From the NCBI GenBank assembly GCA_945878865.1, contig CAMCUD010000008.1, positions 62,001 to 126,000 on the forward strand: DNA of 64,000 bases, read 5' to 3'. The number at the start of each line of letters is the position of its first letter. The first letter of the stretch is position 1. A program made the position numbers and the translations under genes. The notes beneath the pieces were generated by a model, which saw only the letters and a list, made by a program, of their open reading frames with translations, had not been told where the DNA came from and ran no database searches. Shown in pieces: positions 7,453 through 9,842 of this stretch. The DNA comes from Bifidobacterium breve. GTDB taxonomy: Bacteria > Actinomycetota > Thermoleophilia > Solirubrobacterales > Solirubrobacteraceae.

Positions 7453-7472
7453 CAAACTGCGATGATGCGGAC

Positions 7473-8042
7473 ATGGCCGACAAGTCGAACGAGCGCGATG
7501 TCCTGACCAGCCTTCCCCGGACGCGACCCGCCCGCCGCAGCACCAAGCGCGGCGCTGTCGCGGGCGCCCCGGAGACCCCGGAGACACCGGCCCCGACGAC
7601 GTCCAAGCCGGCTGCGAAGACCACGGCGAAGACGACCGCCAAGGCCAAGCCGAAGACCGCCGCGAAGTCGGCGGCCAAGGCCAAGTCCACGACGGCGGCG
7701 AAGTCCAAGCCTGCGGCCAAGGCCAAGACGACGACGAAGGCCAAGACGACCGCCAAGGCCAAGGCCAAGCCGGCGACGGCCGCGAAGGCGAAGGCCAAGC
7801 CCGCGGTCAAGGCGGTGCCCAAGCCCGTCGCCGACCCGGTGCCCTCCGCCGCCGAGCGCGCCTCCGCCGCTGCGGTGCCTCCCGCCGGCTACCAGCCCGC
7901 CGCCGGTGCGACGCCGGAGCCCGAGCCCTCGAACGACCTGCTGACGACGAGCGTCCAGGCCGCCGAGGAGCTCGCGTCCATCGGCGTGACGCTGCTCAAG
8001 CAGGTCGCCGGCTCGCTCGCGTCGCGCCTGCCCAAGCCCTGA
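7473..8042 (+). CDS. Histone H1-like lysine/alanine-rich protein
   Basis: A 189-residue basic protein. After a short head (MADKSNERDVLTSLPRTR), residues 40-125 are almost entirely K, A, T, P and S in KAK/AAK/TTKAK repeats, resembling the C-terminal tail of histone H1 and the tails of actinobacterial HU proteins. A separate C-terminal segment (NDLLTTSVQAAEELASIGVTLLKQVAGSLASRLPKP in full) looks like an amphipathic helix. The likely role is DNA binding and compaction, but no HU or other globular DNA-binding domain is present. An in-frame ATG at 7419 would add 18 residues. I prefer 7473 because of the -10-like hexamer 6 nt upstream. The repetitive GC-rich coding tract makes large shadow frames on the other strand. 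Confidence 0.75.
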   Translation: MADKSNERDVLTSLPRTRPARRSTKRGAVAGAPETPETPAPTTSKPAAKTTAKTTAKAKPKTAAKSAAKAKSTTAAKSKPAAKAKTTTKAKTTAKAKAKPATAAKAKAKPAVKAVPKPVADPVPSAAERASAAAVPPAGYQPAAGATPEPEPSNDLLTTSVQAAEELASIGVTLLKQVAGSLASRLPKP

Positions 8043-8104
8043 CGGCCTGGCCTGTTGACGTAACCACGCTTCGTCGAGCGGGGTCCCTGCGCTAGGGTTC
8101 CCGC

Positions 8105-8260
8105 TTGTCAGCCGAGTCACCGTGGCGTCCGCGCCCGGTGAGCGGGGGAACCACTGCGGACCGGGATTACCGGTCCGCCGGGGCGAATCGGCGCCACGGC
8201 CAGAGGCCGCCGGCGCGGTAGCGCACACGCGCGAGCCCGTCAGCTCACCCCGTAGGCGGA
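8105..8260 (+). ncRNA. ydaO-yuaA class c-di-AMP riboswitch
   Basis: The leader of the rlpA-like gene contains the conserved blocks of the ydaO motif in the right order. These are GGTGAGCGGGGGAACCA (8137-8153), GGGGCGAATCGG (8180-8191) and CCCGTCAGCTCACCCCG (8236-8252). GGTGAGC (8137-8143) can pair perfectly with GCTCACC (8243-8249), the expected long-range closing helix. A GC-rich hairpin lies in the variable region between the conserved blocks. Riboswitches of this class bind c-di-AMP, and in actinobacteria they often precede cell-wall genes of the Rpf, NlpC/P60 or RlpA type. It ends about 22 nt before the GTG start. The mechanism (termination or translation) is not clear from sequence. A TAGGGT -10 candidate lies at 8093-8098. 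Confidence 0.88.
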
Positions 8261-8282
8261 CCGAAACGCCGGACCCATATCC

Positions 8283-8990
8283 GTGACCCGTACGCGAACC
8301 CTGATCGCGGCGCTCTGCGCCGTCTCGCTCGCCTGCCCCGCCGTGGCGCAGGCCCAGGCCCCCGACTCCTCGGGCGGCGCCGCCTTCGGCACGCCGTCGC
8401 TGGGCGCCGTGCCCGCCGCGCTGCGCGGGCAGGTCACCACGCTGAAGGGCCAGCGCCCCGACGCCGCCGGCAAGCCCGTCACCGTCCAGCGCCTCGTCCC
8501 CGACGTCGGCTGGCAGACCCTCGGCACCGGCGTCGCCGACGCCGCAGGCATGTTCTCGATCCCGTGGCGCGCCCAGGACGTCGGCCGCTACCAGCTGCGC
8601 TCGCTCATCGACGGCCAGGAGTCCACGGCGCAGGCCCAGACGGCCAGCACGTCGGGCGAGCAGCCCGAGCTCACCGTCTACCGGCCCGTGAAGGCCACGT
8701 GGTACGGCCCGGGGTTCTTCAACCGCAAGACCGCGTGCGGCCAGCGTCTGCGTGCCGGCACGCGCGGGGTCGCCCACCGCACGCTTCCGTGCGGCTCAGT
8801 CGTCGAGGTCACCTACGGCGGCAAGACCGTCCAGGCCCAGGTCATCGACCGCGGGCCGTTCCGCAAGGGCGTCCATTACGACCTCACGCAGGCGACCGCG
8901 CGCGACCTGGGCTTCGACGGCCTCGAGACGATCGGCGTCCTGACCGTCTCGCGTCCCGCGCCCATCGCGCCGGCAGCGCGCAGGCGCTGA
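8283..8990 (+). CDS. rlpA: Secreted RlpA-like double-psi beta-barrel protein
   Basis: A 235-residue exported protein. A signal peptide (residues 1-26, LIAALCAVSLACPAVAQAQA) precedes a beta-rich linker (about 40-125). The RlpA/DPBB domain follows, with KATWYGPGFFNRKTACGQRL, VAHRTLPCGSVVEV and VIDRGPF; the last carries the catalytic-type Asp of lytic transglycosylases. It probably cleaves or binds peptidoglycan in the envelope, possibly in growth or spore-like resuscitation. The c-di-AMP riboswitch directly upstream is the clearest clue to regulation. The start codon is GTG. The 3' end is 3 nt from the convergent MerR gene. There is no SPOR domain, which is usual for actinobacterial RlpA-like proteins. 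Confidence 0.87.
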   Translation: MTRTRTLIAALCAVSLACPAVAQAQAPDSSGGAAFGTPSLGAVPAALRGQVTTLKGQRPDAAGKPVTVQRLVPDVGWQTLGTGVADAAGMFSIPWRAQDVGRYQLRSLIDGQESTAQAQTASTSGEQPELTVYRPVKATWYGPGFFNRKTACGQRLRAGTRGVAHRTLPCGSVVEVTYGGKTVQAQVIDRGPFRKGVHYDLTQATARDLGFDGLETIGVLTVSRPAPIAPAARRR

Positions 8991-8993
8991 GCG

Positions 8994-9842
8994 CTACGCC
9001 GCGGATTCCTCGACGTACGCCAGGGCGCGATTCGTCAGCGCCGTGAGCGCGGGCGCGGGCTCCTCGACGGCCATCGGCCGGTCGCGCAGCAGCGCGTCGA
9101 GCTCCTCGCCGAGCGTGGCGTCAGCCCGTGCCGCCAGCCGCGCCGCCACCTCCGCTGCGCGCCTCGTGGTCCGCGGATCGATCGTCCAGAGCGCCTCGAA
9201 CCTCCGCGTCAGGTCGTCCTCGTCGCCGGGTTCGGTGATCCCGGGCTGCTCCCAGGCCAGCAGGCACGCCGCGTAGCCGGGCGCGTCCACGATGACGGCC
9301 CATTCGTTGCCGAGCGCGTCGGCTTCGGCGATCGGCACCTCGACCGGGCCCCCAGCAGGACGTCGCAGCTCGGGAAAGTCGGCGAAGACGACCGCCGCGT
9401 CGGCGAGCTGGGCCATCCGCCGGTACCGCGGCTCGACCGAACGGTAGAACGGGTCGCGCTGGAAGGCGCCGAAGACCACGGGCGCCGCGGCGCGCGCGAT
9501 GACCTCGTGCTCGATCGCGCGGCTCAGCGCGATGAGCGTGGACTTGCGCAGCACCTGCGGGCGGATCCCGGGCTCGGACGCCGCGACCGCCGCGTAGATC
9601 GACGGCCGGTCGGTGGCCGCCCCGGACTCCCGGGCGCGCTCGATCGCAGCGGCGACGGAGAGACCGCGGTGGCGGTAGGCGATGACGCGGCGCAGGGCTT
9701 CGACGTCTTCGGCCGAATACTTGCGGTAGCCCGACGCCGTCCGCGCGGGCTCCGGAAAGCCGAAGCGCTGCTCCCACATGCGGATGGTCCCGGCCGCGAT
9801 GCCGGTCTGTTCGGCCACATCCTTGATGGCAAGTCCGCTCAT
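8994..9842 (-). CDS. MerR-family regulator with C-terminal DICT sensory domain
   Basis: A 282-residue transcription factor. The N-terminal winged helix-turn-helix is typical MerR (AIKDVAEQTGIAAGTIRMWEQRFGFPEP, then GYRKYSAEDVEALRRV). Residues about 105-260 form a DICT-type sensory domain (VLRKSTLIALSRAIEHEV, FGAFQRDPFYRSVEPRYRRMA), a family linked to light/redox or nucleotide signalling, with unknown ligand here. TAGGTT lies 7 nt before the ATG, implying a leaderless mRNA. An inverted repeat overlaps that hexamer, suggesting autoregulation. The gene is divergent from the NmrA-like NAD(P)-binding gene, a possible target. Confidence 0.85.
   Translation of the reverse strand: MSGLAIKDVAEQTGIAAGTIRMWEQRFGFPEPARTASGYRKYSAEDVEALRRVIAYRHRGLSVAAAIERARESGAATDRPSIYAAVAASEPGIRPQVLRKSTLIALSRAIEHEVIARAAAPVVFGAFQRDPFYRSVEPRYRRMAQLADAAVVFADFPELRRPAGGPVEVPIAEADALGNEWAVIVDAPGYAACLLAWEQPGITEPGDEDDLTRRFEALWTIDPRTTRRAAEVAARLAARADATLGEELDALLRDRPMAVEEPAPALTALTNRALAYVEESAA

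Follow-up and report, generated by a model that had tools for sequence, protein, structure and literature searches.

A divergent ydaO-type aptamer as a probable c-di-AMP switch in the leader of an rlpA-like gene

The rlpA-like gene and its leader

The window, by which we mean the whole 64-kb stretch of DNA analysed, carries an rlpA-like gene whose GTG start lies 25 nt after the closing helix, P1, of a ydaO-type (RF00379) c-di-AMP aptamer (Table 1). By eye, the predicted protein has a signal-peptide-like N-terminus and an Ig-like N-terminal stretch; its C-terminal DPBB domain scores 47.4 bits with PF03330 (cut-off 28.8). With a DPBB domain and apparent secretion, the protein is a putative enzyme of the PF03330 RlpA/DPBB lytic transglycosylase family, in agreement with the sequence-only reading of this DNA, which had named an RlpA-like protein as the target. 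An open reading frame that separates the principal sigma-factor gene from the riboswitch (window 7461-8042, + strand) encodes a lysine/alanine-rich protein with AKAKTTAK-like repeats, which resembles a histone-H1-like tail and has no Pfam match. Convergent with rlpA is a gene whose product joins a MerR-type regulator to a DICT sensory domain (window 8994-9842, - strand).

Table 1. Positions of the promoter, aptamer and gene features at the rlpA locus.
Feature	Position	Strand	Basis or remark
Probable -10 element TAGGGT (TANNNT)	8093..8098	+	Sequence; CTAGGGTT conserved in L018 and L019
c-di-AMP (ydaO-type) aptamer, full model match	8100..8273	+	RF00379, 27.0 bits; R1, 55.9 bits, E 2.8e-13
P1 5' strand GCC	8111..8113	+	Pairs with GGC 8255-8257; Rfam and R1 alignments
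P1 extension GTC/GAC	8107-8109 / 8259-8261	+	Across an A.G mismatch; P1 extension analysis
P2 hairpin TCACCG ... CGGTGA	8117..8141	+	Compensatory orthologue changes TCCCCG/CGGGGA and TCACTG/CAGTGA
P3 5' strand GCGGGG	8142..8147	+	Pairs with CCCCGT 8248-8253; conserved GAACC next
Extra 9-bp hairpin GCGGACCGG/CCGGTCCGC	8156..8178	+	Variable-stem insertion, lowers Rfam score; stem kept with changes in orthologues
Conserved block GGGGCGAATC	8180..8189	+	GGG 8181-8183 pairs with CCC 8236-8238
Last hairpin GCGC-ACAC-GCGC	8221..8232	+	4-nt loop without the CUCUUUC that makes the Shine-Dalgarno pseudoknot in most relatives
Conserved 3' core CCCGTCAGCTCACCCCGTAGGC	8236..8257	+	Ends with P1 3' strand
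Core stretch CAGCUCACC	within aptamer
rlpA-like gene, GTG start	8283..8990	+	PF03330, E 2.3e-12; start shared with orthologues L018 and L019

Transcription probably starts at about position 8105, some 5 nt before the aptamer. A TANNNT motif precedes P1 by 8-32 nt in 77 of 103 leaders, against 13.9 expected in shuffles. A generic sigma-70 scan returned no promoter at the rlpA leader, a result that says little on actinobacterial promoters.

The sequence-only reading held that all conserved blocks of the class are visible here, and the RF00379 architecture at 8100-8273 bears this out; its closing pairing, GGTGAGC (8137-8143) with GCTCACC (8243-8249), does not stand. The two runs are complementary, but their pairing clashes with P2, P3 and the core: GGTGA is the 3' arm of P2 and pairs with TCACC, GC opens P3, and GCTCA is part of the unpaired conserved CAGCU(A/C)A core. 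Each of two congeneric orthologues, moreover, has one mismatch in this 7-nt match.

These orthologues, from a Solirubrobacteraceae MAG (L018) and Svornostia abyssi J379 (L019), share 76-78% protein identity with the RlpA-like protein, and their leaders retain the core while P2 and the variable stem have changed in a compensatory manner. The S. abyssi leader (L019:1321-1492) is one G short in the conserved GGGGGAACC run; P3 or the ligand site may be weakened by this, or the leader may be decaying in that sister species. Beyond the genus, we found a match to a clade model of the aptamer (R1, described below) in the leader just upstream of 24 of 27 more distant RlpA-relative loci, all from other genera of the family; by this comparison, the association of switch and RlpA is an old one.

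Identity of the aptamer and its sister copies

RF00379 matched the leader over its full model length (1-134) with E 3e-4 in a search of 7900-8500 (601 nt), and 5.9e-4 for the genome. Run at the gathering score over the whole 64-kb window, Rfam returned no match: the rlpA copy misses the 38-bit cut-off, and the above-threshold covariance score that the sequence-only reading had named as support was not obtained (27 against 38). This cut-off marks a curator's choice, not a point of biology, and the nine sister copies score above it. The low score probably reflects the inserted 23-nt hairpin and the shortened last loop, and not a degraded core.

An independent test used R1, a covariance model built from 35 leaders of this genome and its relatives, with the rlpA locus and its orthologues excluded. 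R1 scored the leader at E 2.8e-13 over 64 kb, and this was its sole significant match in the window (runner-up, 5.6 bits); the resemblance is thus far beyond chance. In the R1 alignment, 95.7% of base-pair cells are paired, 14 pairs show changes on both sides, and covariation is 0.367, compared with 0.114 in shuffles. The rlpA leader keeps 39 of the 40 columns invariant in the 35 relatives as aligned, and the one apparent miss arises because the last C of GCGC is shifted in the alignment beside the shortened loop. It has the conserved blocks, the architecture of P1-P3, P5 and last hairpin, and the covarying structure of the family. Together, these results indicate that the rlpA leader is a genuine but divergent ydaO-type aptamer, with c-di-AMP as the ligand expected from the family; the class named by the sequence-only reading is upheld. 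Two other families, RF01340 (a CRISPR repeat model that consists of a hairpin only) and RF02242, gave overlapping matches below threshold, which we set aside as chance.

Because the leader region is 75% G+C, drew a high bias correction in the RF00379 search and scored under the gathering cut-off, we considered whether G+C-rich hairpins merely resemble RF00379 by chance and no RNA regulator is present. The E-value from the independent clade model, the orthologous position and conservation of the leader, and nine bona fide copies elsewhere in the genome speak against this explanation; the clade model and orthologue conservation refute it, and we give it next to no credence.

The genome contains ten RF00379 loci, namely nine above the Rfam cut-off (44-85 bits) and the rlpA copy, the lowest-scoring of the ten; R1 found the same ten and no others. 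Behind them lie genes for three M23 peptidases, two Rpf-like transglycosylases with a peptidoglycan-binding domain, two RlpA/DPBB proteins (the window copy included), a peptidoglycan-binding protein at a contig end, an NlpC-like protein (by eye, no Pfam match) and an unknown membrane protein. By Pfam or by eye, cell-wall-type proteins follow at least nine of the ten switches, rlpA included, and at least eight of the nine sisters. Each of the 61 genomes compared, 60 of them relatives of this one, has between one and 12 switches, and the 67 downstream proteins examined in relatives include at least 24 with PG_binding_1, at least 13 with M23 and at least six with DPBB, tallies that are lower bounds, as automatic ORF choice picks the wrong frame in some relatives.

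The same genome encodes, near G000:C3:47333 and with a CarD-like reading frame behind it, a protein of DisA length with DAC and DisA-linker domains, which matches the prediction of a DisA-type cyclase outside the window. The rlpA copy accordingly occupies the 5' leader of a cell-wall gene, and the organism encodes a diadenylate cyclase; neither of the findings named beforehand as fatal, a missing ydaO-model match or a genome without a c-di-AMP synthase, was encountered. DHH-domain proteins, possible phosphodiesterases, are also encoded.

The Shine-Dalgarno pseudoknot and the expression platform of the rlpA copy

Most leaders have a last hairpin whose loop, typically CUCUUUC as at C3:164194, can pair with a GAAAGAG just 3' of P1 that is also the Shine-Dalgarno sequence, and the two sides vary in a compensatory manner (CTCGTTC/GAACGAG, TCATCCG/TGGATGA, TTCTTTC/GAAAGAA and others). 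The pairing score was at least 6 in 77 of 102 leaders. Since flank shuffling is a weak control for purine-rich flanks, we instead swapped flanks between leaders: mean best loop-flank pairing was 6.21, compared with 5.00 (sd 0.10) after swapping, and none of 500 swaps reached as high a value. Of 61 pseudoknot leaders whose start was parsed, 46 had a Shine-Dalgarno match of at least 5 nt. Start codons usually follow P1 by some 10-30 nt, which leaves a terminator no room. The compensatory pairing of loop and Shine-Dalgarno implies translational OFF control, and this comparison supports a model for most relatives in which the ligand stabilises a fold that hides the ribosome-binding site.

The pseudoknot is a common, not universal, feature of the class, and the rlpA leader lacks it: its loop is ACAC, and no complementary run was found in the 3' flank. 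Nor does this leader have a clear Shine-Dalgarno sequence, the only match being GAAA, 16 nt from the start. Both features are also missing in the two orthologues and in some leaders of other genera, where RlpA and M23 genes repeatedly follow leaders without a pseudoknot, and a Shine-Dalgarno match of at least 5 nt is absent from all eight short-loop leaders that could be parsed. In an exploratory comparison that ignores kinship, P1 was longer in pseudoknot-less leaders, with a mean of 1.96 extra pairs against 0.70 in the others. Thermodynamic folding revealed no switch in accessibility of the start region (0.53 unpaired in the free ensemble versus 0.55 in the forced aptamer), and a scan of 7950-8500 found no terminator-like structure.

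We consider it probable that the aptamer is a c-di-AMP OFF switch on rlpA, most likely working through translation initiation. The proposal builds on observed aptamer homology, covariation, gene linkage, a genomic DisA and the pseudoknot comparison; regulation by the rlpA copy would follow from its family membership, conservation and position. The rlpA transcript would begin about 5 nt before the aptamer, which would take up nearly all of the 5' leader ahead of the start codon. At high levels of c-di-AMP made by DisA, the aptamer would be stabilised and less secreted RlpA produced, with both ligand and OFF direction taken from knowledge of the family, and the nine sister switches would have the same effect on other cell-wall remodelling enzymes. 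Control would most likely fall on translation initiation, as the gap between aptamer and start codon is too short for a terminator. The platform of the rlpA copy itself is a conjecture: given its loss of the pseudoknot and of a recognisable Shine-Dalgarno sequence, a ligand-closed, slightly extended P1 beside the start region might hinder the 30S subunit. More broadly, a Thermoleophilia subclass may have dropped the Shine-Dalgarno sequence together with its pseudoknot and may control translation start by means other than sequestration, such as a longer P1 that the ligand closes right beside the start region, a suggestion that we offer only tentatively.

Several points count against the proposal: the sub-gathering Rfam score, the missing pseudoknot and clear Shine-Dalgarno sequence, the flat folding result, the G lost from GGGGGAACC in S. 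abyssi, and the precedent of Streptomyces rpfA. In that precedent, a switch without a canonical terminator is reported to work by transcription termination (PMC10117811). The rlpA aptamer could similarly act mainly on transcription, with the bound aptamer stopping RNA polymerase early, and without a Shine-Dalgarno pseudoknot it needs a different platform; yet 7950-8500 holds no terminator-like structure, the start codon comes 25 nt after the aptamer, and most relatives have a clear pseudoknot that hides the Shine-Dalgarno sequence, so that we judge this reading unlikely. We regard as more improbable still that the leader is a degenerating former riboswitch, whose fold persists while regulation has gone with the lost expression platform. 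The rlpA copy does score lowest of the ten, lacks pseudoknot and clear Shine-Dalgarno sequence, and has a sister in S. abyssi without a core G; decay, however, sits poorly with invariant columns that are kept while orthologue stems change in a compensatory manner, and with the repeated presence of pseudoknot-less leaders upstream of RlpA and M23 genes in further genera, with a longer P1 in the exploratory comparison.

Relation to known switches and the wider regulon

The rlpA copy shares with the RF00379 ydaO/yuaA class its helices, its conserved blocks (GCCGA..., GCGGGGGAACC, GGGGCGAATC and CCCGTCAGCTCACCCCGTAGGC), a cell-wall gene directly downstream and a DisA in the genome; it differs in its long extra variable-stem hairpin, its 4-nt last loop without a pseudoknot and its sub-gathering score. 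The nearest parallel to our translational OFF proposal is the ydaO switch of Corynebacterium glutamicum nlpC, an OFF switch without a terminator that appears to be translational and for which a loop CTCC-GGAG pseudoknot was suggested by the authors (PMC9960051). Both are actinobacterial ydaO switches before a cell-wall enzyme with no terminator, and the pseudoknot suggested for nlpC is the pattern of most Thermoleophilia relatives, whereas the rlpA copy lacks it and has RlpA in place of NlpC as its target. Streptomyces likewise has a multi-copy cell-wall-hydrolase regulon, with seven such switches in S. coelicolor and six in S. venezuelae (PMC10117811), compared with ten switches in this genome; unlike our proposal, termination is reported for rpfA there, and the available text mentions no RlpA targets.

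That actinobacterial ydaO switches mostly precede cell-wall genes has been published (as cited in PMC9960051). Such targets were thus already known, and a modest twist lies in the expression platform of the rlpA copy. In open-access literature, covered in part, we found nothing relevant that joins c-di-AMP riboswitches with RlpA, or Solirubrobacter with c-di-AMP. Our data would extend the actinobacterial regulon of c-di-AMP and the cell wall to Thermoleophilia, where this genome alone has ten switches, and RlpA would join its recurrent targets. For the Shine-Dalgarno pseudoknot, which in C. glutamicum had only been suggested, the comparative set provides covariation support, and the pseudoknot-less leaders form a natural set for testing how such switches can work.

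Two further observations concern the sister switches. At G000:C8:13635-14984 (L013:3397-5485, - strand), two adjacent Rpf-like genes have separate c-di-AMP switches within about 2.1 kb. The best-scoring switch of the genome (L010:2326-2928, G000:C2) precedes a small protein without a Pfam match, which has an N-terminal WW(A/T)DVE(H/D)(L/V)RE-like motif and, in this genome's copy, a C-terminal hydrophobic segment. Similar proteins follow switches in relatives (L021, L025, L028, L030, L033, L043 and L117), and the WW(A/T)DVE-motif proteins are possibly an unknown family of c-di-AMP-controlled envelope proteins.
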